A program made the position numbers and the translations under genes. Positions 39,644 to 64,000 of a stretch of 64,000 nt of DNA are shown here, in pieces. Below the pieces are notes generated by a model. It saw nothing but the letters and a program-made list of their open reading frames with translations. It made no database searches and was not told the DNA's origin. This DNA comes from Porpolomopsis calyptriformis. Its lineage: Eukaryota; Basidiomycota; Agaricomycetes; Agaricales; Hygrophoraceae. Position 1 is the stretch's first letter; every line of letters starts with the position of its first letter. The stretch spans positions 1,612,001-1,676,000 of the forward strand of contig OX621168.1 in assembly GCA_951640195.1 (NCBI GenBank), read 5' to 3'.

Positions 39644-39974
39644 AAACCCGGCTACAAGTGGATTCGGGAAATTTACACCGTTGTCTTAGGTACGAACGGT
39701 GGTATCACCTGCATGTCTGAGACTGTCGACCGTGCCGTGACAGTTTGATTAACGAGCCGGAAGGCAAGTCCGGTCCACTGCGGTTGATTGACGCCTATAG
39801 GTTATGCAATGACAAAAAAATGGGTACAGGGTGGTAAAAAGGATTTCTTGAATGGTTGCAAGGGTAGGATGAGAAGTAAGATTCAGGACGAATGGCGATC
39901 ACTCATGCATGAACAGTGACCGGGTGCCAGGTTCCCAGTCAGGGTAACAGACGATTGGTCGGTCAGGAAGACAC
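39644..39974. other. Upstream region of the NLR gene
   Basis: Non-coding; the transposon's right border abuts it. No TATA box or repeat stands out. Confidence 0.35.
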
Positions 39975-47063: not shown

Positions 47064-49209
47064 TCAGTCGTCCGGATTGCCAACAGGAGTAGCATCTTCA
47101 CCGCTCCTCTTGCTCTTTTTCCACAATGCGAAATCATCCAACAGTGTAGGCCACGCCTAGAACGTAAAAATCACGCCGAGTAGGTTTCGAGTTAAAAAAG
47201 AAGCAAAGTTGGACACGCACGCCATCCGCTTCGTAGTCGTCTAAGCTGGGGTTTACCGTCTGACAAAACTCCAACATCTGTGGAGGTAAAAGGACGTTCA
47301 TCATTGAAATCTTGAAAAATTAGAATACGATCACCCACCATGTTCCAGAGATCCTTATTGGCCCCCTTGTATGTCCCCTTTTCCTGTATCACAACTTTAA
47401 TACACAAGTCTGGTTCGCTTGGAGGAGCGGATGGACGCACGTTAATAAATTCAATCACATCTCCCATTATGGGATACTGTGGTGCAAGAAGGACGGACCA
47501 AAATGCAGTCGCTGTCTGACAACATGATGTCATAAGTCTGGCTTTCTCTGGAAAGAAGCCTGGAGTAATACACACCTCCATGTCTATATTTCTGGCTTGC
47601 CTGGGATTTGCTGAGATTAACTAGAACAGGAGGGGGAGAGGAAAGCACTCACTCTGGTTTCGCAAGAGCAAAGCAAAATACATACAACTTCGAAAAAGCG
47701 GCTTTGGGATCAACGGCATATGTCCAATAAGTTGTCCTGTCATAAGGCTCGGACTTGTAGGATGACGCCGGGTATTTGGCTGGTTGTCCGCCAAGAATTA
47801 GTAGATTTTCAAGGTCTTTGATCGCCAGAGACAATTGAGGTAAAGAAGAGATTCTGTGTTGCGATAGAAATTCAATAGACCGCTTTCACGAAAATGCAGC
47901 GAATCAGAACTCACTGCAATAAGCTCAGCCCTTGAATCCATTCCTTCTTCGTTAGTTTCCCCATCTCTTTCGCTTGAAGCTGCCATGATAGCACCAGCGG
48001 CAAGGCACCCTCCATCGGCATCTCAGCATCCCCACATAACTGTGTGAAACCTTCGGGGCCGATCACATCCGGATCGTCAGAGTCAGCATAAGTCTGGAAA
48101 ATCGAGAGAGCACGAGTGGTGTTGAAGGTGTCGTAAGACCTGGGCGGTGGTTGTAATTTTACTGGCACGGGTGGAGGTAATGTCTGTGGAACCAAAGACA
48201 ACACCAGAACTTCAGAGGACAAGATGCCCGAGAGGTCAGAAGGACACTTACAGGAAGAGAAAAGAACTTTGGCGGCTCTAATCCTCGATTCGGTGGAGGC
48301 AGGGGTTTCTATAGGAGAGGAATGCGAATGGGCTCAACAAACCTAAATCAGTGGGCTCATCGATGGTGCTCACTGTGATAACTCTGCTAGGTCCTGACTC
48401 ATCATTCCTAAAGTCGACATTTTTAGTCGTGTTGGAAGATGAACAGCAAAGAAGAGAGAATAAGCGCATGCGGGTCAAAGTGGAGACCACCACTACACCA
48501 GTACAGGCTAGCGGGCGCTGACGCTGGCAGAGAAGCAGAGAATAACGGTGTGGTGTTGGGTGGGAATTCTACTCACTGCTGTAAAGGAAAGAGGTTAGCC
48601 ACGTGCAGAGTACTAAAACATGAGGTATTACGTCAGCATTGCTGGACAAAGGATATTCCGCGGGAAAAGTTGAAAGGAGGGTGAGGAAAAGTAAGCTGGG
48701 AAGTTTCGTGATGAACTCGTGGAGGGGAACTGACCTCAAGGCAGCTTTGGATGGCTTTGTTGATTTTGACTTGGCCCTTGTCTGGGCCCTCTTTGTTTTC
48801 TTGGCAGTTTGGGCAACCTGATGGCAGAACAGCGAGATCGGAAGTGTGACGGGGCAAGTCAAAGCACGTATTATACGCGCACCTCGTTAGGGTCGGCCTC
48901 CTGGCTTGCATGCACTTCCCTGGTGTTTGTCAATAAGATTGAAAGGAACGAAATGTTAAAACCAAACTCACGTCGATAGGTTGACAGTGAAAGACGGTGT
49001 AGAGCCCGGGGGCATTTCAGCTGGTGCAGAATTTGAAGTGGCGTTAGCTCGAGGCTTCCTAGTTCGTTTTGACACTCGAGTGGGTCGTGTCGAGGTTTCT
49101 GCAGAGTCAGCAGCAGCAGCGGCGGCGGCGGCAGCATCGCGTTTGCGCTAAGCAGAGATGGTGAATGAATCCAAAGCTTGAAAAATGGCGATACTACCTT
49201 GGATGTCAT
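47064..49209 (-). CDS. Dcn1-like cullin neddylation factor with basic N-terminal extension
   Basis: E3-type co-factor that helps Ubc12 join Nedd8 to cullins. The PONY domain is spread over many small exons: FNTTRALSIFQTYADSDDPDVIGPEGF, MPMEGALPLVLSWQLQAKEMG, FCFALAKPE, then NIDME, TATAFWSVLLAPQYPIMGD, EKGTYKGANKDLWNM, MLEFCQTVNPSL and AWPTLLDDF. The N-terminal exons (49,209 to about 48,720) encode an Ala tract and basic stretches (SKRTRKPRAN, AKKTKRAQTRAKSKS) that are not part of the classic domain. The joints between 48,720 and 48,350 are uncertain, so a separate small upstream gene cannot be fully excluded. The end at 47,064 follows TPVGNPDD. Confidence 0.75.
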
Positions 49210-49334
49210 TGGTGTATGGAACGAGGATTGAGAGATGCAGGCTTTATCATGGACGCGTTTCAATGTCGGATATCACCGAAGTGCTACAGTAACGCGTCCG
49301 AGTGACCGTGACCCGATACTTTCAAAGAGAGACG

Positions 49335-50025
49335 ATGCCTGAGGTCTACAACCCTAATCCGACCATTTACTCACTGCCAAAGTCCTCTGGTCGAAAGCAT
49401 GATTCGGAAAGTCGGAAGGAACCCTGGTTTTATGCAGAAGACACCGTCGACGACACAAACGAAGTAGAGCCAATCGACCAGGAAGAGATATTCGGTGAGT
49501 TATGAATATGACCACCATCGAACCAATTTAACCATTGTTCATTTAGATCTTATTCGTTCCATCACCGATCCAGAGCATCCGAACACGCTCGAAGAACTCC
49601 GTGTCGTCTCGGCTCCACAAATACAAGTGGAACACAACCGGGTGACAGTCGAGTTCACCCCAACTGTCCCGCACTGTGGTATGTCTACCCTCATAGGTAA
49701 GTGTGCAGAATGTTCGCCCGCTTAGTACCGCATCGATCCAAACCCCAAAAGGCTTGTCCATTCGGGTAAGACTGTTCAGGAGTCTTCCGGATCGGTTCAA
49801 AATCGATATATTTGTAAAGCCGGGCTCGCATCAGAGCGAAAACTCATGTGAGTCAGGATCCATATAGTCAAGACGTTTGTTCCTGTTGCTAACCACGTAA
49901 TCCCAGTAAACAAGCAACTGAATGACAAGGAACGAGTAGCAGCAGCCCTCGAAAATCCTCACATTGTGAGCTCACTCGAGCACTGTTTAGCAACTGCTGG
50001 CCGTCGCGATTCATCTCCCGAATAA
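49335..50025 (+). CDS. CIA2: Cia2/MIP18 family cytosolic Fe-S targeting protein
   Basis: Part of the cytosolic iron-sulfur cluster assembly targeting complex, which hands Fe-S clusters to nuclear and cytosolic client proteins. The start at 49,335 ([14 protein letters not shown]) leads to [46 protein letters not shown] with the reactive Cys of the family, then [36 protein letters not shown] and a stop at 50,025. Three introns (from 49,494, 49,696 and 49,849). About 180 residues. The 3' end of this gene recurs as decayed fragments in the tandem array that follows. Confidence 0.87.
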
Positions 50026-50249
50026 GATTCGTTTCAATCTCGTACAAATTCACGTTGTATCGATAGCATCTATCTCAATGTCACTTTCCTACAGGCTACA
50101 TGCAAGCCTTTTCGTTTCAGCGTACACTTCGCCGAAAGCACCAACGACCCCGAGTGTACCAGCCTCATATTTTCCGGGGACCGTTCACTGAGCTTCTTGG
50201 AACTCGTCCCTTGATATGCGAAGTGATAAACCAGCACCTCGATACCCAA

Positions 50250-50390
50250 CGCTCTTTCCCCGAGGATAAATCCCACGTGTCTTTCTGCCAAACGACTGAA
50301 CGCATTCTTAAAAATCATCAGCTATTCTACTGAACCTATGGAGCACTGTTCTATGAGAGTACGCGAACCTGTGCGTTTGCCCAAGGCAGC
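50250..50390 (+). pseudogene. Decayed B-gene fragment (B0)
   Basis: Aligns with the middle of the B genes: CAAACGACTGAACGCATTCTT, AAAATCATCAGCTATTCTACT, GAACCTATG and GAGAGTACGCGAACCT. Frames are broken and both ends are missing. It shows that a B gene once stood directly behind Cia2. Confidence 0.7.
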
Positions 50391-50666
50391 TATAACATTG
50401 TCAATTTCCTTGAATGCATGTTATTTCAGGTGAAGTGGCCTACAGAATCCTAGAACACCGTCAGTGTGGTATGTTTAATTTGATTAAACCTTTCTGGTGT
50501 GGAATAAGTTTTCTTTTCATTACAGCTGGCTCGAATCTTCTGGAATACAAATATATATCAACGCGATCCAGGTTGAAGCTTTCTGTTAGAGAAGGGTTCA
50601 AGGCAATAACGTTACTAAACTGTAGGCCATTGAATCCAAGGGGATCGAACCTCAGGATTTTGGCCT

Positions 50667-51599
50667 TCAGACCCTCAGAACTGAAATGTCTGTGTTGAAG
50701 GGATCAATAAAAGCTTCCGCCCAAGCTTCAATCCTGTCCAGCATGGTGTTTGATTCCATCTTTCCTATCTGCAAGTAGCCTGACCACTGCGACTGCCTTG
50801 TTGGGTCCAATATGTCATCAGAGGGCATGTAGTCGGTATCGTCGAAGCTGCCATATACATGCTCTACGTCTGCCTTGAAAAATTGTCGCCACGTCCAGAA
50901 TGATCCGGCGGCGGCGATTGCGATGACGGATGATTGCCGTGCTCCAGAGAATAAATATCCAACCTGAGCTTTAGAGGCCTTCTGTGCTTCTCTCATCCCA
51001 CTCCTAAGGCTAAGCTTGCTGGAAATATCATCGTCGTTGTTATTCGAGCGACGGTACGTCTTGACTTCAGTGATAATTGGGATGATTACGTCTAAAATTT
51101 CTCTTTCCGAAGTCGCTGCATTGTACGCATTCCGAAGGTGTAGGATCGCAAAATCGGTCACTTTGTGAGTCTCGGTTTTGGACAAGGGTGGGAGTGGTTG
51201 AGTAGGAGGATGTTGCGGGGGTGAAGGTGTTGGCAACAGGGGGGGTTTTGGAGCCGACTTGTGGGCCAGAGGTGACGAAGGTGGTGATAAAGACATCGAG
51301 TCTGAGTCACTGTATATTCGACTCCTTCCCAAAACATGTTTGAAGGAAATCAAAGCGTCCTCGGGATCGGGATCCATCTCAATATCTGACGGAGACCGGG
51401 GAATGCTACTCCCAATCTCGCTTTCCTCTGAGTCCAATGACCACAGAGGGTACTGTGGACTGAGACAGCAGGAATCTAACTTCTCGAACCGCCTTAAAAC
51501 AGTGTTCCATAGTGCATACCAGGGTAATTCACGTTGTCGGTAATTTTTGCCGGGGTCATTGCCAAGAGCAATGGCAAGTTCTTGAATGTGAGGGGCCAT
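50667..51599 (-). CDS. Array gene A1, PD-(D/E)XK nuclease-like protein
   Basis: 310 residues, one coding exon, ATG at 51,599 (MAPHIQELAIALGND). It has a conserved N-terminal block (LPWYALWNTVLRRFEKLDSC, CLSPQYPLW), an acidic/Ser/Pro-rich middle (DSDSMSLSPPSSPLA), then HKVTDFAILHLRNAYN and IIPIITEVKTYRR. I read the Asp of TDF and the Glu/Lys of EVK as the core of a PD-(D/E)XK nuclease fold. A helix with AQKASKAQVGYLF and a hydrophobic strand VIAIAAAGSFWTWRQFF fit that fold. The most divergent A copy: it has FSGARQ and a different tail (DPFNTDISVLRV). Biological role is unknown. Confidence 0.75.
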   Translation of the reverse strand: MAPHIQELAIALGNDPGKNYRQRELPWYALWNTVLRRFEKLDSCCLSPQYPLWSLDSEESEIGSSIPRSPSDIEMDPDPEDALISFKHVLGRSRIYSDSDSMSLSPPSSPLAHKSAPKPPLLPTPSPPQHPPTQPLPPLSKTETHKVTDFAILHLRNAYNAATSEREILDVIIPIITEVKTYRRSNNNDDDISSKLSLRSGMREAQKASKAQVGYLFSGARQSSVIAIAAAGSFWTWRQFFKADVEHVYGSFDDTDYMPSDDILDPTRQSQWSGYLQIGKMESNTMLDRIEAWAEAFIDPFNTDISVLRV

Positions 51600-51908
51600 T
51601 GGTGATAACTAACCGCATATTTAATGGAATACATAGCCTACTGGGCGGACAGGGACTTACCAGACTGTGAGAGGCTAAAGCTCATAGAGTTTGATGTCAT
51701 GATTGGGTGGGGTACAAGTGCCAAGCTTGCGCCGACCGAAACCTTGGTTGAGTGCCTGATTGCTATGTAACAAGCAGACACGGTGGGTAACAATCTTTGG
51801 GCCAAATGGCCCTCGTTTTTGCTGCTCGTTCACTCACGGCGCTGGTTGGATTACATAAAGAAGGGAATCCGCACTCACTGTAAAACTCAACCAACATCCT
51901 TACTCTCG
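51600..51908. promoter_or_regulatory. Divergent A1/B1 promoter region
   Basis: 309 bp between start codons. On the A side lies an intron-like segment before the ATG (GTAAGTCCC...GTTAG), as in the other copies, so A mRNAs probably have a spliced 5' leader. The frame of B1 is open upstream to about 51,783, but homology with the other B genes starts at MSNTFWGY (51,909). Confidence 0.5.
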
Positions 51909-52457
51909 ATGTCGAATACTTTTTGGGGCTATCCTATGGACGTACCTCGTACGATCAAGGAGGTCATGCGCCGGGAGCAAAGCTATAGGCAAAAGGTCCG
52001 ATCCTATGACGATTTCGAACGTTGGAACCTTAGTATGTTCACTTATGCCGAGGAAATTTTCGGGAGAGAGAGTGGCATCCAAAATCTCGACATACAGGAA
52101 ACATGGATTGGTCGCGGCAGGAAAGCATATTGCTGGGCTCTTCCTCCCACGATGAATCCTGCATGTCGTTCTGCAGAGGACACCAAACGACTAAACGCGT
52201 TTTTGAGAATCATCGGCTGTACTACCCAACCTAGGAAGTATTGGTCTACAAGAGCACGCGAACCCACACACTTGCGCGACGCCCCGCCTATCCCAAAGAT
52301 CGTGGAAGACAAACTTTGGGAGGCTTGTCTTAGTGGGTTTAGATCCGGTGCGATATTGGAAGAATTGGAGGCGGAGGATATTGCTAAAGCAAATAGAGCG
52401 GAATTGGACGAATCGTTGGCAGAGGACATGGCCAGAGCGAAGATCACCGCCCCCTAA
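51909..52457 (+). CDS. Array gene B1, unknown 182-residue protein
   Basis: Unrecognised family. The start MSNTFWGYPMDVP at 51,909 is chosen because all B genes share it. Conserved blocks are TIKEV(M/I)RR, GRKAYCWALPPTMNPACRS, EDTKRLNAFLRIIG, PPIPKIVEDKLWEACLSGF and the acidic helix ILEELEAEDIAKANR, ending ARAKITAP. No signal peptide or membrane segment is seen. The N-terminal half differs most from the other copies (RREQSYRQKVRSYDDFERW), while the C-terminal half is nearly the same as in B2, B3 and B5. It is always paired head-to-head with an A gene, which points to joint regulation or a joint product. Confidence 0.72.
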   Translation: MSNTFWGYPMDVPRTIKEVMRREQSYRQKVRSYDDFERWNLSMFTYAEEIFGRESGIQNLDIQETWIGRGRKAYCWALPPTMNPACRSAEDTKRLNAFLRIIGCTTQPRKYWSTRAREPTHLRDAPPIPKIVEDKLWEACLSGFRSGAILEELEAEDIAKANRAELDESLAEDMARAKITAP

Positions 52458-52847
52458 ATAGTGAGCAATTTTACACTTCTTCATAACCACCTTGGGTTGA
52501 TTCACGATGTACAGTAGTCTCATATCGTAATTCAGACTACATTGTCGTGGATTCCCTCCAACGTTCAATTGAATCAGTTCATATTACCTTCTTGTACAGA
52601 CCTAATCGCTCGTTCATTCGCACCTCAGTTTTTGACCAACCATGGTGGCATTGACACACCAGCCTTATCCCTTTCGGTTCGCACCCTGATCTGCTACCTG
52701 ACTGCCAAATGGTCATGCCTTAATGCTGTAGAGTAAGTCCTTTATTCCTTCCTGGAATGGAATGCGACTTTTCAGGATGATATGGTATAGCCTCAAGGAG
52801 ACCTTACGCTGATACGAAAGCCAAGGACGAAGATGCCGTTCTGCAAG

Positions 52848-53329
52848 TGGTAATCATCTCAAATAGTTTTTTGGGCTACCCCATGAACGTACCTGCTACG
52901 ATCAAGGAGGTCATACGTCGGATGATTTCGGCAAGTCACCCAGTATGTTTTCTTTGGCCAGAGAAATATTCGGGAGAGAGTGTGGCATCCGAAATCTCGA
53001 CATACGGGAAACATGAATTGGTCACGGTTGCTGCGCCCTTCCTCCCACAATGAGTCCCGCATGTCGTTCTGCAGAGGACACAAAGCAACTAAACACGTTC
53101 TTAAGAAATCCTTACAGAACCTACGAAGTATTGTTCTACATGAGTACGCGAACCCACACACTTGCGCAACGCCCCGCCGATTCCTGAGTTCGTGGAAGAC
53201 ATACTTGTCTTAGTGGGTTTCGATCCGGAGCTATATTGGAGGCGGAGGACATTGCGAAAGCGATAGAGTGTGGTTGGGCGAATCATTGGCGGAGGGCATA
53301 GCCAGGGCGAAGATCGACCCTTCCTAAAT
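52848..53329 (+). pseudogene. Decayed extra B copy
   Basis: Recognisable from TTTTTTGGGCTACCCCATGAACG through the end block GGGCGAAGATCGACCCTTCCTAA. Deletions (a gap after ATACGTCGGATG and another after GAAGACATACTTG), a TGA near 53,014 and shifts destroy the frame. It sits in the spacer of the first unit, interrupting sequence that is continuous in the other units between about 52,793 and 53,410. Confidence 0.8.
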
Positions 53330-53510
53330 AGTGTGAGTGCTTCGCAGTTCCTTCACAACTATTGTGGTTGATTCACTGAGACGCATACAGTAGTCTGCCA
53401 CTCCTCCATGGCCTCAGACTCAAGAAATTGCAGAGTACCTCGCGCCGGGATATTCCTGCCGACAGCCACTGCAAGTGTAGTTCTCAGAAGTCTAAACTGG
53501 CACTGTCACA

Positions 53511-53620
53511 ATGTAATCCCAGCAACCAAACGGCTGGGCAATAAAGGACAGATAGTAGGTGCGCGCGAGAATCCTCACATGTTGATCTCGAATACTCGAA
53601 CATAGTTTAGAAATTGCTGG
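53511..53620 (+). pseudogene. Cia2 3'-end relic, unit 1
   Basis: Similar to 49,906-50,000 of Cia2: TGTAATCCCAG, GGCAATAAAGGACAGATAGTAG, GAGAATCCTCACAT and TAGTTTAGAAATTGCTGG. It is frame-broken and non-coding. Confidence 0.65.
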
Positions 53621-53838
53621 TTGCGATCCACATTACAGATGTCAAATTCCCAAATACAAGTGTACATACAGTGAGCACCTCGAGAAAGACAGCGGAAGCA
53701 TATCACAAAGAATATAACCCCATCATTCTTTAAATTACAGACCATTCGACCGAAGGGGGGCAAGCCGCTCCGCGCTCGATGTGTCTTGCATAGTACTTCG
53801 CCTCGTAGAAGTAGTAGGTCCTTGTCAGTCCTCAGTCC

Positions 53839-54792
53839 TCAGGCCTTCAGATCCAGGACTAAAATGCCTGAGCTGAAAGGATCGATAAACTCTTTTGCCC
53901 AAGCCTCAATCTTGTCCAACATGACATTTGATTGATGATCCCCGATTCGGAAATGGTCCGACCACTTTGTCCTCCTTGTCGAGTCCAATACATCGTCCGA
54001 TGGCATGTAGTCGGCATCATCAAAGTTTGCAAACGGACGCACTTCCTCCGCTTTAAAATACTGCCGCCATGTCCAGAAAGGTCCAGCGGCAGCAATTGCG
54101 ATGACGGACGATTGTTCCTTTCCAGAGAAGAGATATTGAACCTGAATTTTCACCGTGTTCTGTGCTTGGTTTATCCCATCCCAACGACTGTCCAGGCTGG
54201 CATCGTCATTATCGCTGTTATTCGATCGGCGGTACGTCTTAACTTCTGCAACCACTGGAATGATTACGTCCAAAATTTCTCTTTCGCAAGTCAGTTTATT
54301 GTAGGTGTTCCGGAGATGAAGGATAGCAAAGTCGGTCACTTTGTGCGACTCATCTTTAGACATGGGTGGAAGTGCTTGAGTTGGAGGAGGTTTCGGAGGT
54401 GACGGTGTCGGGATAAGGGATGGCATTGGTTTTGACTTAAGGGCCAGAGGTGATGATGGAGGTGATAAAGACATCGAGTCTGAATCACTGTATACTCCAC
54501 TCTGGCCCAAAACATGTTGAAAGGCTGCAGCATCAACCTCTTCATCGTATGGATCCGAGGACATCTTAATATCCATCCGAGACTGGGTGCTGCTGCTCCC
54601 AGTCTCACTGCCGTCCGAGTCTAACAACCACAGAGGGTACTGCGGACTGAGACAACAGGAATCTAAGGTCTCGAGCCGCCTTAAAACGGTGTTCCATAGT
54701 GCATACCATGGGAATTCACGTTGTCGGTGATTTTGTTGGGGATCATTGCCAAGGGCGATGGCAAGTTCTTGAGTGATCAGAGAGTGACGCAT
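53839..54792 (-). CDS. Array gene A2, PD-(D/E)XK nuclease-like protein
   Basis: 317 residues from the ATG at 54,792 (MRHSLITQELAIALG). Same layout as A1: FPWYALWNTVLRRLETLDSC, acidic/Ser-rich middle, KVTDFAILHLRNTYN, IIPVVAEVKTYRR, then AQNTVKIQVQYLF and VIAIAAAGPFWTWRQYF. It ends SGILVLDLKA. In this copy a longer reading is possible: an upstream exon from the ATG at 54,952 (MRRKFGAHPWFVLF, hydrophobic) would splice in frame via the leader intron (donor GTAAGTATC, acceptor CCTAG) and would add a signal-like N-terminus. The other copies do not clearly support it, so I keep the shorter start. Confidence 0.75.
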   Translation of the reverse strand: MRHSLITQELAIALGNDPQQNHRQREFPWYALWNTVLRRLETLDSCCLSPQYPLWLLDSDGSETGSSSTQSRMDIKMSSDPYDEEVDAAAFQHVLGQSGVYSDSDSMSLSPPSSPLALKSKPMPSLIPTPSPPKPPPTQALPPMSKDESHKVTDFAILHLRNTYNKLTCEREILDVIIPVVAEVKTYRRSNNSDNDDASLDSRWDGINQAQNTVKIQVQYLFSGKEQSSVIAIAAAGPFWTWRQYFKAEEVRPFANFDDADYMPSDDVLDSTRRTKWSDHFRIGDHQSNVMLDKIEAWAKEFIDPFSSGILVLDLKA

Positions 54793-55022
54793 GGGTGATA
54801 GAACCTAGGTAGATGTGAATGAGATGAAAAGTAAAGAACTTGATACTTACTAGTAGTGGCGAAAAGTCTGCTATTCGGCATTTCGAGTAACATGAACAAA
54901 TAATTGCCACAAACAACACGAACCATGGGTGAGCACCAAATTTACGTCGCATTATTTATCTATCGTGATAACTGCCATCAATAGCTTCGTTCTTAATATC
55001 AAACACTTTTTGGGGCTACCCT
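54793..55022. promoter_or_regulatory. Divergent A2/B2 promoter region
   Basis: Contains the A leader intron (about 54,807-54,852) and GAACAAATAATTGCC at 54,894-54,907, a weak version of the GACAAACATTTGCC motif found in the A3/B3 and A5/B5 gaps. The B start codon position (about 54,996) reads ATA here. Confidence 0.45.
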
Positions 55023-55544
55023 ATGGACGTACCTGCTACGATCAAGGAGGTCATACGTCGAGATTCAACATACAGGCAAAATGTCCGGTCTCTTAACGAT
55101 TTGGACAGGTCGGGACCCAGTATGTTCTCTTTTGCCCAAGAGACTTTTGGGAGAGAGTGCGGTATTCGGAATCTCAGAATAGAACGAGCGTGGATTGGCC
55201 GCGGCAGGAAAGCATATTGTTGGGCCCTTCCTCCCACAATGAATCCCGCATGTCGTTCTGCAGAGGACACCGAACGACTAAACGCGTTCTTGAAAATCAT
55301 CGGCTATACTACCGAACCTATGAAGTATTGCTCTGCAAGAGTACGCGAACCTACACACTTTCGCGACGCCCTGCCGATCCCAAAGATCGTGGAGGACAAA
55401 CTTTGGGAGGCTTGTCTTAGTGGGTTTAGATCCGGTGCGATATTGGAAGAATTGGAGGCGGAGGATATTGCTAAAGCGAATAGAGCGGAATCGGACGAAT
55501 CGTTGGCAGAGTACATGGCCAGGGCGAAGATCACCGCCCCCTAA
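55023..55544 (+). CDS. Array gene B2, shortened start
   Basis: The usual B start ATG is replaced by ATA (ATATCAAACACTTTTTGGGGC at about 54,996), although the following codons are intact. The first in-frame ATG is at 55,023 (MDVPATIKEVIRRDSTYRQ), giving 173 residues. The rest is complete: SMFSFAQETFGRECGIRN, GRKAYCWALPPTMNPACRS, LNAFLKIIGYTTEPMKYC and the terminal ARAKITAP. Translation may start at the internal Met, or output may be lowered. Confidence 0.7.
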   Translation: MDVPATIKEVIRRDSTYRQNVRSLNDLDRSGPSMFSFAQETFGRECGIRNLRIERAWIGRGRKAYCWALPPTMNPACRSAEDTERLNAFLKIIGYTTEPMKYCSARVREPTHFRDALPIPKIVEDKLWEACLSGFRSGAILEELEAEDIAKANRAESDESLAEYMARAKITAP

Positions 55545-56002
55545 ATAGTGAGCGATTTTGCACTTCTTCATAACCACCTTGGGTTGATTCACGATGTACA
55601 GTAGTCTCACATCGTAATTCAGACTACATTGTCGTGGATTCCCTCCAACGTTCAATTGAATCAGTTCATATTACCTTCTTGTACAGACCTAATCGCTCGT
55701 TCACTCGCACCTCAGTTTTTGACCAACCATGGTGGCATTGACACACCAGCCTTATCCCTTTCGGTTCGCACCCTGATTATGTGCCGATCTGCTACCTGAC
55801 TGCCAAATGGTCATGTCTTAATGCTGTAGAGTAAGTCCTTTATTCCTTCCTGGAATGGAATGTGACTTTTCAGGACGATATGGTATAGCCTCAGACTCAA
55901 GAAATTGTGGAGCATCTCGCGTTAGAGGCACCGTGATATATTTGCCGACAGCCACCGTCGTATCCCAACGTGTGCTCAGAAGTCTAAACTGTACCTGTGA
56001 TC

Positions 56003-56096
56003 ATGCAATCCGAGTAAACGAGCAGCTGGATGATAAGGAACGGGTACGCTTGAGAATCGTGAGGTCAAATGCTCAAACACCGTTTAGCAACCGATA
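56003..56096 (+). pseudogene. Cia2 3'-end relic, unit 2
   Basis: GAGTAAACGAGCAGCTGGAT and GATAAGGAACGGGTA align with GTAAACAAGCAACTGAATGA and CAAGGAACGAGTA of Cia2 (49,908 on), with transitions only; CACCGTTTAGCAAC follows. Not coding. Confidence 0.7.
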
Positions 56097-56250
56097 CTTG
56101 TTACAATCCACCTTAAGAATGTTAAATGCAAGTGTACATCGAGGGTATAAAATCCACAATACAGACCATTGGGCCAAAGCGATCAAGCCGAAGTTCATCG
56201 CTCATTGTCCTGTTCTACCTAGTAGAAGTAGTAGGTCCGGCCATAGGTTA

Positions 56251-57204
56251 TCAGTCCTCAGGGACCAGGACCAAAACGCCCGAGGTGAAGGGATCGATGA
56301 ACTCTTTTACCCAAGCCTCAATCTTGTCCAACGTGACGCTCGAATTTTCACTCCCTATCCGAAAATGGTCCGACCACTCTGTTTTCCTTGTCAGATCCAA
56401 TACTTCATCGGATGGCACGTAGTCGGCATCGTCAAAATTCGCAAACGGACGTGCTTCTTCGGCCTTGAAATACTGCCGCCATGTCCAGAATGGTCCAGCG
56501 GCAGCAATGGCAATGATGGATGGTTGTTCTTTCCCAGAGAAAAGATATTGGGCCTGACTTTCCGCCGCCTTCTGTGCTTGGTTCATCCCATCCCAACGAC
56601 TATCCAGGCTGGCATCATCATCATCGCTGTTATTCGATTGACGGTATGTCTTCACTTCTGCAATCACTGGAATGATTACATCCAAAATTTCTCTTTCGCC
56701 AACCATGGGATTGAAGATGTTCCGAAGGTGTAAGATAGCAAAATCAGTCACTTTGTGTGACTCGTCTTTGGACATGGGTGGGAGTGGTTGGGGTGGGGGA
56801 AGTTTCGGAGGTGATGGTGTGGGAACGAAGGATGGCATATGTTTTGACTTACGGGCCAGAGGTGATGATGGCGGCGATAAAGACATCGAGTCTGAATCAC
56901 TGTATACTCCACTCTGGCTCAGAACATGTTGGAAGGCATTTGCATCAACATCTTCATCGCATGGATCTGAACCCATTTCGACATCTTTCTGAGACCGGGC
57001 GGTGCTGCTCTCAGTCTCATGATCGTCGGAGTCCAACAACCATAGAGGGTACTGTGGGCTGAGACAGCAGGAATCTAACGTCTCGAACCGCCTTAAAACT
57101 GTGTTCCATAGTGCATACCATGGGAATTCACGTTGTCGGTAATTGTGTCGGGGGTCATTACCAAAGGCAATGGCAAGTTCTTGAATGATCAGAGAGTGAT
57201 GCAT
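56251..57204 (-). CDS. Array gene A3, PD-(D/E)XK nuclease-like protein
   Basis: 317 residues from the ATG at 57,204 (MHHSLIIQELAIAFG), chosen because it lines up with A2, A4 and A5; the frame is open further upstream to 57,294. It has KVTDFAILHLRNIFN, IIPVIAEVKTYRQ, AQKAAESQAQYLF and VIAIAAAGPFWTWRQYF... with the variant IIAIAAAG, and ends SGVLVLVPED. The presumed catalytic Asp, Glu and Lys are kept. Confidence 0.75.
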   Translation of the reverse strand: MHHSLIIQELAIAFGNDPRHNYRQREFPWYALWNTVLRRFETLDSCCLSPQYPLWLLDSDDHETESSTARSQKDVEMGSDPCDEDVDANAFQHVLSQSGVYSDSDSMSLSPPSSPLARKSKHMPSFVPTPSPPKLPPPQPLPPMSKDESHKVTDFAILHLRNIFNPMVGEREILDVIIPVIAEVKTYRQSNNSDDDDASLDSRWDGMNQAQKAAESQAQYLFSGKEQPSIIAIAAAGPFWTWRQYFKAEEARPFANFDDADYVPSDEVLDLTRKTEWSDHFRIGSENSSVTLDKIEAWVKEFIDPFTSGVLVLVPED

Positions 57205-57332
57205 GGGTGGAAAACCTAGGTAGCGTTGATGTGAATGAAGCAATTGGGTGGGCAGGGAAGGACACACGTACTGAAGCGCGTTAAGACTCTTCACACTCGA
57301 TCATATCGTATCGATGACTATTGGTAAACACA

Positions 57333-57346
57333 GACAAACATTTGCC
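57333..57346. promoter_or_regulatory. GACAAACATTTGCC motif in the A3/B3 gap
   Basis: The same 14 bases occur at 62,215-62,228 between A5 and B5, at a similar distance from B. It is a candidate shared regulatory site of the divergent pairs. Confidence 0.4.
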
Positions 57347-57397
57347 GACATCGTCCATTGTCTACCTCTCGTTTAGCAATCAATAGCTTCACTCTCC

Positions 57398-57946
57398 ATG
57401 TCAAATACTTTTTGGGGCTACCCTATGGACGTACCAGCTACGATCAAGGAGGTCATTCGTCGAAATTCAAAATACAAGAAAAACGTCCGATCTCTTAACG
57501 ATTTGGACAGGTCGGGACCCAGTATGTTCTCTTTTGCCCGAGAGACTTTTGGGAGAGAGTGCGGTATTCGGAATCTCAGAATAGAACGAGCGTGGATTGG
57601 CCGCGGCAGGAAAGCATATTGTTGGGCCCTTCCTCCCACAATGAATCCCGCATGTCGTTCTGCAGAGGACACCGAACGACTAAACGCGTTCTTGAAAATC
57701 ATTGGCTATACTTCCGAACCTATGAAGTATTGCTCTGCGAGAGTACGCGAACCTCCACACTTTCGCGACGCCCTGCCGATCCCAAAGATCGTGGAAGACA
57801 AACTTTGGGAGGCTTGTCTTAGTGGGTTTAGATCCGGTGCGATATTGGAAGAATTGGAGGCGGAGGATATTGCTAAAGCGAATAGAGCGAAATCGGACGA
57901 ATCGTTGGCAGAGGACATGGCCAAGGCGAAGATCACCGCCCCCTAA
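57398..57946 (+). CDS. Array gene B3, unknown 182-residue protein
   Basis: Complete copy, ATG at 57,398 (MSNTFWGYPMDVPATIKEV). It is almost the same as B2 from about 57,490 to the stop, apart from RRNSKYKKNVRS in place of the B2 N-terminal segment and PPHFRDALPIPK. It ends AKAKITAP. No known domain. A3 lies 193 bp away on the other strand. Confidence 0.74.
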   Translation: MSNTFWGYPMDVPATIKEVIRRNSKYKKNVRSLNDLDRSGPSMFSFARETFGRECGIRNLRIERAWIGRGRKAYCWALPPTMNPACRSAEDTERLNAFLKIIGYTSEPMKYCSARVREPPHFRDALPIPKIVEDKLWEACLSGFRSGAILEELEAEDIAKANRAKSDESLAEDMAKAKITAP

Positions 57947-58399
57947 ATAGTGAGCGATTTTGCACTTCTTCATAACCACCTTGGGTTGATTCACGATGTA
58001 CAGTAGTCTCATATCGTAATTCAGACCACATTGTCGTGGATTCCCTCCAACGTTCAATTGAATCAGTTCATATTACCTTCTTGTACAGACCAAATCGCTT
58101 GTTCATTCGCATCTCACTTCTTGACCCGCCATGCACCTGGCACTGACACACCAACCTTATCCCTTTCGATTCATCCCTTGATTATGTCCCGATCTACTTC
58201 CTATGATCATGCACCTTGATGCTGTAGAGTAAGTCCTTTATTCCTTCCTGGAATGCTATTCTAAGGAATGCAACTTTTCAGAATGCTATGCTTCGATGTG
58301 GTGTGGCCCCAGACTCAAGAGATTGCCACGCTAAGAGCTCCCAGATATTCCAGCCGACAGCTACTGACAGTGTATATCTCAAAATTGGCACATGTCACC

Positions 58400-58492
58400 G
58401 TGTAATCCTAGTACACAAGCAGCTGGACAATAAAGAATGGGTACCAGGTGCCGTGAGCTCAAGTACTTGAACACCGTTTAACAATGCTGGTT
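58400..58492 (+). pseudogene. Cia2 3'-end relic, unit 3
   Basis: TGTAATCCTAGTACACAAGC, AGCTGGACAATAAAGAATGG and GAACACCGTTTAACAATGCTGG parallel Cia2 49,903-50,000. This unit's spacer is less like the others, so it may be an older copy. Confidence 0.6.
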
Positions 58493-58700
58493 GTCAAAAT
58501 CCACCTCATAGATATTAAATTTCCAAATACAAGTGCATATATAGAGCACCTCGAGAAAAGACCAAAAATTATTAAATTACAGATCATCGGATTGAAAGGA
58601 ATCAAGCCGAAATTTATCCCCTAGCGCTGTATCTTGAATAGAAATGTTTCCACCTGTCGCCTCGTGGAAGTAATAGCCTCTGCACATAGGCTGTCAGTCT

Positions 58701-59636
58701 TCAGGCCTTGGGGTCCAGGACCAAAACGCCTGAGCTGAAAGGATCGATAAATTCTTTTGCCCAAGCCTCCATCTTGTCCAACATGACATTCGATTTTTCA
58801 TGTCCTATCCGGAAATAATCCGACCACTTGGTCCTTGTTGAGTCCAATATATCATCAGATGGCACGTAGTCGGCATCATCAAAGCTCACGGATGGTCGCG
58901 CTTCTCCTGCCTTAAAATACTGCCGCCATGTCCAGAAAGGTCCAGCGGCAGCAACTGCGATTATGGACGATTGGTTCCTCCCAGAGAAGAAATATTGAAC
59001 CTGATTTTCCACCGTCTTCTGTGCTCGGTTCATCCCAGTCAAACGACTTTCTCTGCTGGCATCACTCTCATCGTTATTATTCCAACGACGGTAGGTCTTG
59101 ATTTCGGTGATGACAGGAATAATTACATCCAAAATTTGTCTTTCGTGAGTCAATTGATTGTAAGTGTTCCGGAGATGTAGGATAGCAAAGTCGGTCACTT
59201 TGTGCGACTCATCTTTGGACATGGGTGGGAGTGGTTTGAATGGAGGAGGTTTCGGAGGTGATGGTGTCGGTAAGAGGGATGAGATTGGTTTTGACTTATG
59301 GGCCAGAGGTGATGACGGTGGCGATAAAGACATCGAGTCTGAATCACTGTATACTCCACTCTGGTCCAAAACATGTTGGAACGCAATTGCGTCTGCATCA
59401 TCGGAAGTCATTTCGTAATCGGGTTGAGACTGGGCACTGCTGCTCTCAGTCTGATCATCCGAGTCCAACAACCATAGAGGGTACTGTGGACTGAGACAAC
59501 AGGAGTCTAACTTCTCGAATCGCCTTAAAACAGTGTTCCATAGCGCATACCATGGGAATTCACGTTGTCGGTAATTTTGTTGGGGGTCATTGCCAAGGGC
59601 GATGGTAAGTTCTTGAATGGTTGGAGGGTTACGCAT
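58701..59636 (-). CDS. Array gene A4, PD-(D/E)XK nuclease-like protein
   Basis: About 311 residues from the ATG at 59,636 (MRNPPTIQELTIALG). It keeps FPWYALWNTVLRRFEKLDSC, KVTDFAILHLRNTYNQLTHE, IIPVITEIKTYRRWNNND, AQKTVENQVQYFF and VAAAGPFWTWRQYFKAG, and ends SGVLVLDPKA. The acidic middle is shortened relative to A2 and A3. The E-x-K pair is EIK here. Confidence 0.75.
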   Translation of the reverse strand: MRNPPTIQELTIALGNDPQQNYRQREFPWYALWNTVLRRFEKLDSCCLSPQYPLWLLDSDDQTESSSAQSQPDYEMTSDDADAIAFQHVLDQSGVYSDSDSMSLSPPSSPLAHKSKPISSLLPTPSPPKPPPFKPLPPMSKDESHKVTDFAILHLRNTYNQLTHERQILDVIIPVITEIKTYRRWNNNDESDASRESRLTGMNRAQKTVENQVQYFFSGRNQSSIIAVAAAGPFWTWRQYFKAGEARPSVSFDDADYVPSDDILDSTRTKWSDYFRIGHEKSNVMLDKMEAWAKEFIDPFSSGVLVLDPKA

Positions 59637-59864
59637 GGGCGGCGAAAAGCTAAGCACATTCTTGATGTGAGTAACACAGCATGAACAGGGGAGACTTTAA
59701 TGCTTACCAGCGGTGAAGCTTCAAGCTGGGGGCGGCATCCGCCAGATCAACGATTAGGTGACGAAATGGCAAACACTGATAAATATTTTCAACCCACCCA
59801 CAGTGAGCTCCAAATTTCCGTCGCGAGCTATGGTTAGTAACTGAAATTAGTAGATTCACCCACG

Positions 59865-60413
59865 ATGTCAAATAGTTTTTGGGGCTACCCCATGAACGTA
59901 CCTGCTACGATCAAGGAGGTCATACGTCGGGATTCCACATACAGGCAAAACGTCCAATCTCTTGATGATTTCGACAGGTGGGCACCCAGTATGTTTTCTT
60001 TTGCCAGAGAAACATTCGGGAGAGAGTGCGGTATTCGGAATCTCAGCATAGAACAGGCATGGATTGGTCACGGCAGGAAAGCATATTGTTGGGTCCTTCC
60101 CCCTACCATGAATCCCGCCTGTCGTTCTGTAGAGGACACCAAACGACTAAACGCGTTCTTAAAAATTGTCGGGTATACCACCGAACCTACGAAGTACTGT
60201 TCTACGATGGTACACGAACCTACACACTTGCGCAATGCCCCGCCGATCCCGAAGATCGTGGAAGACATACTTTGGGAGGCTTGTCTTAGTGGGTTTAGAT
60301 CCGGAGCTATATTGGAAGAATTGGAAGTGGTGGACTTTGCTAAAGTTAATAGAGCGAAATCGGACGAATCATTGGCGAAGGATATGGCCAGGGCGAAGAT
60401 CGCCGCCCCCTAA
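59865..60413 (+). CDS. Array gene B4, unknown 182-residue protein
   Basis: Complete copy, ATG at 59,865 (MSNSFWGYPMNVPATIKEV). It differs from the other B genes also in the C-terminal half (WVLPPTMNPACRSVEDTK, LEVVDFAKVNRAKS, AKDMARAKIAAP), so it appears not to have been homogenised there. The 3' spacer after the stop is again the common one. It is the likely source type of the extra B relic in unit 1, which shares the MNVP reading. Confidence 0.74.
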   Translation: MSNSFWGYPMNVPATIKEVIRRDSTYRQNVQSLDDFDRWAPSMFSFARETFGRECGIRNLSIEQAWIGHGRKAYCWVLPPTMNPACRSVEDTKRLNAFLKIVGYTTEPTKYCSTMVHEPTHLRNAPPIPKIVEDILWEACLSGFRSGAILEELEVVDFAKVNRAKSDESLAKDMARAKIAAP

Positions 60414-60863
60414 ACAGTGAGCGATTTTGCACTTCTTCATAACCACCTTGGGTTGATTCACGATGTACAGTAGTCTCATATCGTAATTCAGACTACATTG
60501 TCGTGGATTCCCTCCAACGTTCAATTGAATCAGTTCATATTACCTTCTTGTACAGACCTAATCGCTCGTTCATTCGCACCTCAGTTTTTGACCAACCATG
60601 GTGGCATTGACACACCAGCCTTATCCCTTTCGGTTCGCACCCTGATTATGTGCCGATCTGCTACCTGACTGCCAAATGGTCATGGGTTAACGCTGTAGAG
60701 TAAGTCCTTTATTCCTTCCTGGAATGGAATGCGACTTTTCAGGATGATATGGTATAGCCTCAGACTCAAGAAATTGTGGAGCATCTCGCGTTAGAGGCAC
60801 CGTGATATATTTGCCGACAGCCACCGTCGTATCCCGCTCAGAAGTCTAAACTGTACCTGTGAT

Positions 60864-60957
60864 CATGCAATCCGAGTAAACGAGTGGATGATAAGGAACG
60901 GGTACGCTTGAGAATCGTGAGGTCAAATGCTCAAACACCGTTTAGCAACCGCTACTT
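60864..60957 (+). pseudogene. Cia2 3'-end relic, unit 4
   Basis: Nearly identical to the unit 2 relic, with a short deletion (CGAGTGGATGATAAGGAACG). Not coding. Confidence 0.68.
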
Positions 60958-61121
60958 GTCACAATCCACCTTAAGAATGTTAAATGCAAGTGTACATACA
61001 TCGAGGGTATAAAATCCACAATTAATAAATTACAGACCATTGGGCCAAAGGGATCAAGCCGAAGTTCATCGCTCATTGTCCTGTTCTACCTAGTAGAAGT
61101 AGTAGGTCCGGCCATAGGTTC

Positions 61122-62069
61122 TCAGTCTTCACGTTCCAGGACCAAAACGCCTGAGGTAAAAGGATCAATGAACTCTTTTACCCAAGCCTCAATCTTATCC
61201 AACATGACGTTTGAATTTTCGTTCCCTATCCGAAAATGGTCCGACCACACCATATTCCTTGTCAGATCCAATACATCATCAGAGGGCACGTAGTCGCCAT
61301 CATCAAAGTTCGCAAACGGAGGCGATTCTTCTGCCTTGAAATATTGCCGCCATGTCCAGAATGGCCCAGCGGCAGCGATCGCAATGACAGACGATTGTTG
61401 TCTCCCGGAGAAGAAATATCGGACCTGAATGTTTACAGCTCTCTGCGCTTGTTTTAGCCCTTGCCAGCGACTATCTATGCTGGCATCATCGTCATCGTTA
61501 TTATTCCAACGACGATACGTCTTGATTTCGATGATGACAGGAACAAGTATGTCCAAAATTTGTCTTTCGTGAGTCAATTGATTGTAGGTGTTCCGGAGAT
61601 GTAGGATAGCAAAGTCGGTCACTTTGTGCGGCTCATCTTTGGACATGGGTGGGAGTGGTTTGGGTGGAGGAGGCTTCGGAGGTGATGGTGTCGGTAAGAG
61701 GGGTGAGATTGGTTTTGACTTATGGGCCAGAGGTGAAGACGGTGGCGAGAAAGACATTGAGTCTGAATCACTGTATGCTTCACTCCGGCCCAAAACATGT
61801 TGGAACCCAATTGCGTCTGCATCATCAGAAGGATCTGAGGTCATTTCGTAATCGGGTTGAGACCCGGAACTGCTGCTTTCAGTCTCATCGTCCAGAGCCA
61901 ACAACCATAGAGGGTATTGTGGACTGAGGCAACAGGAATCGAACCGTTCGAACTGTCTCAAAACGGTATTCCATAGTGCATACCATGGCAATTCACGCCG
62001 TCGGTAATTTTTTTCCGGGTCATTACCGAGAGCAATGGCAAGTTCTTGAATGACAGGAGAGTGACGCAT
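61122..62069 (-). CDS. Array gene A5, PD-(D/E)XK nuclease-like protein
   Basis: 315 residues from the ATG at 62,069 (MRHSPVIQELAIALG). It keeps LPWYALWNTVLRQFERFDSC, KVTDFAILHLRNTYNQLTHE, LVPVIIEIKTYRRWNNND, AQRAVNIQVRYFF and VIAIAAAGPFWTWRQYF, ending SGVLVLERED. It is closest to A4 in the middle and to A3 at the 3' end, a patchwork consistent with exchange between copies. Confidence 0.75.
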   Translation of the reverse strand: MRHSPVIQELAIALGNDPEKNYRRRELPWYALWNTVLRQFERFDSCCLSPQYPLWLLALDDETESSSSGSQPDYEMTSDPSDDADAIGFQHVLGRSEAYSDSDSMSFSPPSSPLAHKSKPISPLLPTPSPPKPPPPKPLPPMSKDEPHKVTDFAILHLRNTYNQLTHERQILDILVPVIIEIKTYRRWNNNDDDDASIDSRWQGLKQAQRAVNIQVRYFFSGRQQSSVIAIAAAGPFWTWRQYFKAEESPPFANFDDGDYVPSDDVLDLTRNMVWSDHFRIGNENSNVMLDKIEAWVKEFIDPFTSGVLVLERED

Positions 62070-62214
62070 GGGTGACAATGACTACATGCAATGTGAATGA
62101 AACGCAACTTAGCTGGGACAAGGGGATTGAATACTTACCGGGGTAAAGCGTGCAAGCTTGAAGCAATCGATTACAATGAACAGCCATCGGCAGGTGATCG
62201 ACGCGTCGAACAAA

Positions 62215-62228
62215 GACAAACATTTGCC
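62215..62228. promoter_or_regulatory. GACAAACATTTGCC motif in the A5/B5 gap
   Basis: Exact match to 57,333-57,346; it lies 76 bp before the B5 start codon. Confidence 0.4.
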
Positions 62229-62303
62229 ACACCAAAGCGTCAGTCACCTTTCGCTGCATTGTCTAGCCATCACTGATAACCGCAGTTAATAGCTTCTCCA
62301 TCG

Positions 62304-62852
62304 ATGTCCGATACATTTTGGGGCTACCTCGTGGACGTACCTGCTACAATCAAAAAGGTCATACGTCGAAATTCAGGATACAAGAAAAACGTCCGATCCC
62401 TCCATGATTTCGACAGGTCGGGAGCTAGTATGTTTTCTTTTGCCGAAGAAACTTTTGGCAGAGAGTGCGGTATCCGAAATCTCAGCATAGAACGGGCGTG
62501 GATTGGTCACGGCAGGAAAGCATATTGTTGGGCCCTTCCTCCCACAATGAATCCCGCATGTCGTTCTGCGGAGGACACCAAACGACTAAACGCGTTCTTA
62601 AGAATCATCGGCTATACTACCGAACCTACGAAGTATTGTTCTACGAGGATGCGCGAACCCGCACACTTACGCGATGCCCCACCGATCCCAAAGATCGTGG
62701 AAAACATACTTTGGGAGGCTTGTCTTAGTGGGTTTAGATCCGGTGCGATATTGGAAGAATTGGAGGCGGAGGATATTGCTAAAGCGAATAGAGCGGAATC
62801 GGACGAATCGTTGGCAGAGGATATGGCCAGGGCGAAGATTACCGCCCCCTAA
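62304..62852 (+). CDS. Array gene B5, unknown 182-residue protein
   Basis: Complete copy, ATG at 62,304 (MSDTFWGYLVDVPATIKKV). Its N-terminal half is a variant (RRNSGYKKNVRSLHDFDRS, AEETFGRECGIRN). Its C-terminal half matches B1-B3 (SGAILEELEAEDIAKANR, ARAKITAP). It is the last complete gene of the array. Confidence 0.74.
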   Translation: MSDTFWGYLVDVPATIKKVIRRNSGYKKNVRSLHDFDRSGASMFSFAEETFGRECGIRNLSIERAWIGHGRKAYCWALPPTMNPACRSAEDTKRLNAFLRIIGYTTEPTKYCSTRMREPAHLRDAPPIPKIVENILWEACLSGFRSGAILEELEAEDIAKANRAESDESLAEDMARAKITAP

Positions 62853-63451
62853 ATAGTGAGCGATTTTACACTTCTTCATAACCACCTTGGGTTGATTTAC
62901 TATGTACAGTAGTCTCATATTGTAATTCAGACTACATCACCATGGATTCCCTCCAATGTTCAATTGAATTGGTTCATAATTACCTTCTTGTACAGACCTA
63001 ATCGCTCGTTCATTCGCATCCCGCTTTTTGACCAGCTGTGGTTGCATTGACGCACTAGCCTTATCCCTTTCGGTTCGCCCCCTGATTATGTGCCGATCTA
63101 CTACCTGACTGCCAAATGGTCATGCGCCTTAATGTTGTCCTTTATTCCTTCCTGGAATGTTATTCCAAGGAATGCGACTTTTCAGAACGATATGGTATGG
63201 CCTCAGACTCAAGAAATTGTGGAGCATCTCGCGCTAGAGGCACCGTGATATATTTGCCGACAGCTACTGCCGGTGTTTCCCAGCGTGTGGTCAGAAGTCT
63301 AAAATGCAAGTGTACATACATCGAGAGTGTAAAATCCACAATTACAGACCAATGGACCAAAGGGGTCAAGCCAAAGTTCATCGCTCAGCGCTCGGCTTGT
63401 TTCGTATACCTCAGTAGTAGGTCCTATACATAGGGATTATCCTCAGGCCTC

Positions 63452-63570
63452 TGAATGGTTGGAGGGTTACGCATGGGCGATGAAAGCTAACTATATTCTT
63501 GATGTAAATAATATAGCATGAACAGGGGAGACTTTAATGTTTACCAGCTTCAAGCTTGAAGCCCAGTGAA
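63452..63570 (-). pseudogene. Remnant of a sixth A gene
   Basis: Only the start region and leader intron of an A gene remain: TGAATGGTTGGAGGGTTACGCATGGGC (as in A4 at about 59,614-59,640), then ATTCTTGATGT, AGCATGAACAGGGGAGACTTTAATG and TTACCAGC. The whole coding body between this point and the usual 3' end has been lost. B6 is absent. Confidence 0.7.
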
Positions 63571-63816
63571 AAACGCGGCTATTTGGAGGGAATCGTGTAG
63601 ATATGGAACTATTTGTACCAATACATAACAATTGCGTACCAATTACACCAATTTACTTCTTGATAAAAAGCTTTTTGTCCTTATTTGAGGAAGTTCCTTG
63701 CCATTTTTGAGTGCCTCGAGTCGACGACGTTTACTTCCAGACTTATTGATAAATTTATTCTTCGGTGAGCCTCAATTTAATCAATTTATTGGTTAAACTA
63801 ATTTACTTCCGATTAC
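63571..63816. other. 5' region of the right-hand transposon
   Basis: AT-rich, with repeated TTTACTTC(C) at about 63,653, 63,731 and 63,802 and repeats of TTGATAAA, resembling subterminal repeats of a DNA transposon. The outer border is not clear. Confidence 0.4.
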
Positions 63817-64000
63817 ATGGAACCTGTGCAAGACCAGCCGCTGCCTGGCTTCTGGTGCAACTGCAGCAGGTACTGTGGCGACCCACCCAAGAAGGTTTCA
63901 CAAATGACATATAACCGACATACCAACAACTGCAAGTACGATCTCTTCGTACTGGAATTCTGGGCATTGTTGCAGTCCAGAAACGGGGGGAAATCTACAA
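63817..64000 (+). CDS. Start of a Tnp2/Plavaka-type transposon gene (cut by window end)
   Basis: An open frame from the ATG at 63,817 to the window edge (61 codons). It begins MEPVQDQPLPGFWCNCSRYC and has KKVSQMTYNRHTNNC, a Cys/His arrangement (C-x-C-x3-C...H-x3-C) often seen at the N-terminus of Tnp2-type (CACTA/Plavaka) transposase proteins in Agaricomycetes. The rest lies outside the window, so the family call is provisional. Confidence 0.5.
   Translation, partial: MEPVQDQPLPGFWCNCSRYCGDPPKKVSQMTYNRHTNNCKYDLFVLEFWALLQSRNGGKST

Follow-up and report, generated by a model that had tools for sequence, protein, structure and literature searches.

Closest described systems

A D...E-x-K active-site signature and an alpha-beta-beta-beta-alpha-beta core are the hallmarks of the PD-(D/E)XK nuclease superfamily. 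Among described enzymes, the type IIG restriction enzymes (e.g., BpuSI, 3s1s; DrdV, 7lvv) resemble, in secondary-structure order and D...ExK-type residues, one of two proteins (A and B) encoded by a tandem array of divergent gene pairs in the 64-kb window analyzed here (G000:C6:1612001-1676000 of a 33.5-Mb genome with 17 contigs). Protein A differs from these enzymes in being fungal, in having no other recognised Pfam domain, in its linker of ~90 low-confidence residues and in its low sequence identity to them (7-10 %). The most likely reading, which we favour only tentatively, is that of a nuclease (A) with a co-expressed, functionally linked partner (B).

Divergent pairs, sometimes in several copies, are also formed by the HD1/HD2 mating-type genes of Agaricomycetes, and the A/B pairs share both this layout and the multiplicity. 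However, neither A nor B matched a homeodomain in Pfam, and an exon-by-exon search of the own genome with PF00046 gave 9 matches among the best candidates, none of which (0/9) lies on C6, the contig of the array. The initial annotation had considered an allorecognition locus; in the sense of a homeodomain mating-type locus this is not supported, the homeodomain matches being located elsewhere. CidA/CidB and CinA/CinB of Wolbachia are bacterial and large proteins, whereas A and B are fungal, and the B profile matched none of their chains in sequence. In the SPOK spore killers known from Podospora and Fusarium, a single protein carries both a nuclease-like and a kinase domain, according to an excerpt of PMC12693581; on the same source, they share with A/B the fungal host, the multicopy state and, on the SPOK side, a nuclease-like killing domain. 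In contrast, A and B are encoded by two divergent genes, and neither has a Pfam kinase match. Lacking both homeodomain and kinase, the pair is therefore neither an HD mating-type pair nor a Spok gene. Judging by titles and abstract openings, no published account of an A/B pair was found.

Organization of the array

Five head-to-head A/B pairs occupy positions 50667-62852 of the window, with reading frames of A (minus strand, 310-317 aa) and B (plus strand, 182 codons) alternating in divergent orientation, five of each:

50251..50424, plus strand: B relic, a fragment (best stretch residues 77-125); head-to-head A not detected
50667..51599, minus strand: A1, PD-(D/E)XK-type nuclease candidate, 310 aa
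51600..51908: gap 1, 309 bp, candidate shared promoter; carries the A1 5' UTR (untranslated region) intron signals
51909..52457, plus strand: B1, 182 aa, no known family; 3' half far closer to the other B copies than the 5' part
~52856..53315, plus strand: decayed B copy with in-frame stops; head-to-head A not detected
53839..54792, minus strand: A2, 317 aa, copy used for the structure model
54793..54995: gap 2, 203 bp, candidate shared promoter
54996..55544, plus strand: B2, 182 codons; codon 1 reads ATA, not ATG, and Met first appears at codon 10
56251..57204, minus strand: A3, 317 aa
57205..57397: gap 3, 193 bp, candidate shared promoter
57398..57946, plus strand: B3, 182 aa
58701..59636, minus strand: A4, 311 aa
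59637..59864: gap 4, 228 bp, candidate shared promoter
59865..60413, plus strand: B4, 182 aa
61122..62069, minus strand: A5, 315 aa
62070..62303: gap 5, 234 bp, candidate shared promoter
62304..62852, plus strand: B5, 182 aa
~62909..63387: truncated copy of the inter-unit spacer after B5, end of the array

These coordinates confirm the five A and five B genes in divergent pairs proposed by the initial annotation, and the gaps, given there as 190-310 bp, measure 193-309 bp. The proposed unit length of about 2.4 kb holds for three of the four start-to-start spacings of B (2402, 2467 and 2439 bp), but not for the first (3087 bp), this unit of 3.1 kb being longer because it contains the decayed B copy with stops. 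Protein identities of 64-79 % among the A copies and 75-94 % among the B copies (10 pairs each) show the array to consist of a true repeated unit. All five A and five B frames are open, as had been claimed for nearly all of them; however, the array contains and is flanked by decayed copies of B, and B2 is without the ATG start that is kept in 4 of the 5 array copies of B. This loss may mean that B2 is in decay; alternatively, translation may begin at codon 10, the position at which a metagenomic relative (P0004) also starts, presumably by a gene caller's choice.

Protein A: a predicted nuclease

The residues D154, E183, K185 and Q217 (A2 numbering; D...ExK...Q) are invariant in 20 aligned A sequences, and the predicted structure of A2, which is confident outside the linker located between core strands 1 and 2, contains the alpha-beta-beta-beta-alpha-beta core of PD-(D/E)XK nucleases. 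The invariant residues and the fold of the model support the nuclease-like character originally assigned to A, which is probably a PD-(D/E)XK-type nuclease and probably an active one. The best VIA-align rows of the model were the nuclease domains of BpuSI and DrdV, while Foldseek searches of PDB and the viral library gave nothing at E <= 0.001. Pfam and NCBIfam provided no clear match among the 20 A members, A5 matching Herpes_UL24 weakly (E 0.084) and under the cut-off of that family. Sequence matches of A to solved structures comprised 18 rows (13 designed Pizza proteins, 4 ATP-synthase gamma chains and 1 light-harvesting protein) and were judged to be chance; the Pizza rows (best E 0.00028) cover residues 212-239 only, with no stretch significant alone. 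A single pattern stretch for A in viral_contigs was not confirmed.

Protein B and the gap shared with A

Among 11 B members scanned against Pfam no clear family emerged. One of them, B1, showed a weak match to the H-NS C-terminal domain (E 0.0053; best E 0.0031) around W-x-G-x-G-R, which spans ~10 residues and scores 16.9 bits vs. a curated cut-off of 25.6; three further families appeared once each (E 0.079-0.24). Comparison of the B sequence with solved structures retrieved one row (LuxE, E 1.4). The B model is unreliable (mean predicted local distance difference test score, pLDDT, of 47.2). Of the pattern stretches for prokaryotic or viral relatives of B (12 in genome_contigs, 13 in viral_contigs) none was confirmed, and a search of a protein database with one B sequence revealed two metagenomic proteins (66 % identity) outside the own genome. 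B is a small protein known from few sources, and its gene starts from the same gap as that of A.

This gap is a candidate shared promoter. All 7 intact A copies of the genome possess, as pairs picked by eye from a candidate list without chance control, a donor-like GTAAGT, GTAAGC, GTACGT or GTAGGT starting between -58 and -71, together with a TAG or CAG acceptor ending 9-13 bases before the ATG. With acceptor-to-ATG distances of 9, 11, 12 and 13, the intron would belong to the 5' UTR and not to coding sequence. Such a candidate intron would speak for transcription of A.

Copies elsewhere in the genome

Protein searches of the own genome were evaluated for the best-scoring candidates, so that copy counts are lower bounds. 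Outside the array, A was found on C2 (one intact copy, one split into two frames) and C4 (one copy), and B on C2 (three frames and one fragment), on C4 (one) and as relics on C6. One intact divergent pair each is present at C2 and C4; together with the array, intact pairs thus occur on three contigs. In total, the loci read contain 7 intact A, 1 broken A and 1 small A fragment adjoining the latter, as well as 9 B frames and 5 B relics, one of which comprises only 17 aligned residues.

The gap of the C4 pair measures 1386 bp and harbours a 1013-bp repeat with terminal inverted repeats (L020:4915-5927, corresponding to G000:C4:1258915-1259927), most of which is matched at 94-98 % in five other places of the genome; an inner stretch of ~110 bp matches at many more. 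In view of these termini and copies, an insertion probably widened a formerly short gap.

A decayed B copy is located ~22 kb beyond the window (L022:4681-5188; G000:C6:1697681-1698188), and ~2-4 kb before it lies a frame with retrotransposon-type aspartyl-protease matches. A distant A-like divergent frame on C10 (~95.8-96.3 kb; L023 ~3800-4300) has the E of ExK replaced by lysine, and next to it no B was detected better than E 0.45. Weak A-like pieces at C12 (~980.3 kb) and C6 (~1683.0 kb) were not counted as genes. Within the window, an NB-ARC/TPR gene (NLR/STAND-type, plus strand) consists of two parts in the same frame (39948-41105 and 41106-42845) with a stop codon between them (intron or decay).

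Selection and history of the array

Pairwise dN/dS ratios (nonsynonymous to synonymous substitution rates; Nei-Gojobori with bootstrap limits) range from 0.20 to 0.32 for A (21 pairs) and from 0.14 to 0.42 for B (36 pairs). Upper bootstrap limits do not exceed 0.45 for A; for B, only the B2-B3 pair (1 of 36) reaches 1.22, because few changes separate the two (dS 0.068), and the next B pair reaches 0.68. Both A and B are under purifying selection. The initial annotation had named values near 1 for both genes as evidence against its proposal of selection on the pair; such values are not observed. By region, A yields 0.22 in the N-terminal part, 0.22 in the nuclease core, 0.25 in the C-terminal part and 0.35 in the linker, while in B the ratio climbs from 0.14 (residues 1-55, all pairs pooled) to 0.34 (residues 151-182). 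Diversifying selection on the B 5' part is not apparent from the former value.

Identity between units, determined in windows of 150 columns, is uneven: 64-94 % in A, 28-63 % in the gap, 67-90 % in the 5' window of B, 84-98 % in the last two windows of B and 88-100 % in the stretch directly after B. In the spacer before A it extends from 30-52 % (unit 1 vs. the others) to 92-99 % (unit 3 vs. unit 5). This pattern points to exchange between units that homogenised the B tails and the sequence following them, with A, the gap and the B 5' part retaining older differences. The gaps are far more diverged than the flanking genes; compared to shuffled sequences, gaps 2-5 are still mutually related (z 6.3-9.4), gap 1 barely (z 1.6-2.7). 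Trees rooted on the C2 and C4 copies place copy 1 outside copies 2-5 for both A and B, and group 2+3 (support 0.928 for A, 0.975 for B) as well as 4+5 (0.977 for A, only 0.177 for B). Branch lengths are unlike, dS being 0.49 for A2-A3 vs. 0.068 for B2-B3.

Relatives in other organisms

The widest search, with 7998 candidates scored, retrieved at least 15 A relatives at E <= 0.001, three of them with species names (Taiwanofungus camphoratus, Phlebopus sp. FC_14 and Melanogaster broomeanus, all Agaricomycetes). The host of the array is probably an Agaricomycete fungus. The closest metagenomic matches share 45-46 % identity with A and 66 % with B and do not necessarily stem from one organism. Given these levels, B in the named species might be within reach of the search, if annotated.

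Interpretation of the A/B pair

The array of five pairs and the recurrence of the pair at two other places of the genome suggest that A and B work together. In the favoured reading, they would form a co-duplicated two-gene module of the fungus, with A as an active nuclease of a small PD-(D/E)XK-type family and B as a co-expressed partner that would bind A and then restrain or direct it; tandem amplification may have raised dosage or diversity of the pair. Several observations weigh against obligate pairing. In the three named fungi with A, no annotated B was found by the one-sequence protein search, which did not cover genome DNA, small genes often being unannotated; this is the strongest such point, and the pairing may be lineage-specific. 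In the own genome, 2 of the 9 B frames are without intact A (both on C2, one without an A of its own, one facing the broken A), and for none of the five B relics was an A relic detected head to head. The initial annotation's view that pairing was kept through all duplications goes too far: 7 of 7 intact A copies have a head-to-head B, but some B copies and relics have no A opposite them. The annotated proteins of the three named fungi lean towards the counter-evidence that it named, A and B occurring mostly apart in other genomes.

The true alternatives are passenger linkage and a mobile-element remnant. In the former, A and B would be unrelated in function, each useful alone, sharing a promoter gap and being co-copied by unequal crossing-over. 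A tandem unit copies both genes whatever their function, homogenised B tails conform to ordinary unequal exchange, B persists without A in the own genome and A apparently occurs elsewhere without B. However, intact pairs have been maintained on three contigs despite deep divergence, and both genes remain open side by side even though divergence is far greater in the gaps than in the genes; passenger linkage is a serious, if doubtful, possibility. The mobile-element remnant, with A as transposon nuclease and B as accessory protein, would agree with the location on three contigs in differing gene neighbourhoods. Against it stand the absence of inverted repeats >= 60 bp in 48000-64000, the low dN/dS of intact copies and the homology between loci, which ends near the gene ends (though old non-coding DNA may have decayed), making this origin highly improbable.

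A toxin/antidote locus and a defence or allorecognition effector are special cases overlapping the nuclease-partner reading. As a selfish locus, A would kill and B would be the antidote, and arrays would grow since a new pair kills cells or spores without the matching B. None of the 7 intact A copies lacks B, but the asymmetry between A and B concerns only a handful of copies, the A relatives in the three named fungi carry the same residues while B was found in none (annotated proteins, one B query), and pairwise dN/dS reveals no arms race, though a few fast sites are possible; we consider this version unlikely. Alternatively, A would cut foreign or non-self DNA or RNA in defence, nucleic-acid surveillance or allorecognition, with B targeting or controlling it. 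The likeness of A to restriction-enzyme nuclease domains, the multicopy state under purifying selection (as expected of a useful effector), the NB-ARC/TPR gene of NLR-type architecture at 39948-42845, ~7.4 kb before the first B relic, and the H-NS match of B1 as a hint of DNA contact are in line with this. Yet that match is short and below the curated cut-off, and the seven neighbour frames scanned at the three loci, a non-exhaustive set, display no shared defence neighbourhood (EF-Ts and a tryptophan-synthesis gene were matched at C2 and C4); we consider this effector version unlikely as well. We likewise attach low confidence to the specific proposal that the pair represents a new nuclease toxin/antidote (or nuclease/specificity-factor) system of mushroom-forming fungi, tandem-amplified and dispersed, in which A, gap and B 5' part would stay together as a block specific to each pair, with the B tails being exchanged between units.

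Relevance for fungal biology

Two-gene conflict systems described from this group of fungi are, to our knowledge, few. A represents a nuclease family without clear Pfam or NCBIfam match, and the pair is a concrete unit that lends itself to simple tests of A, of B and of both combined. Should A and B function jointly, the pair would be a nuclease module of a eukaryote in which the partner is dedicated to the nuclease and encoded next to it, and which has been multiplied and is under selection.

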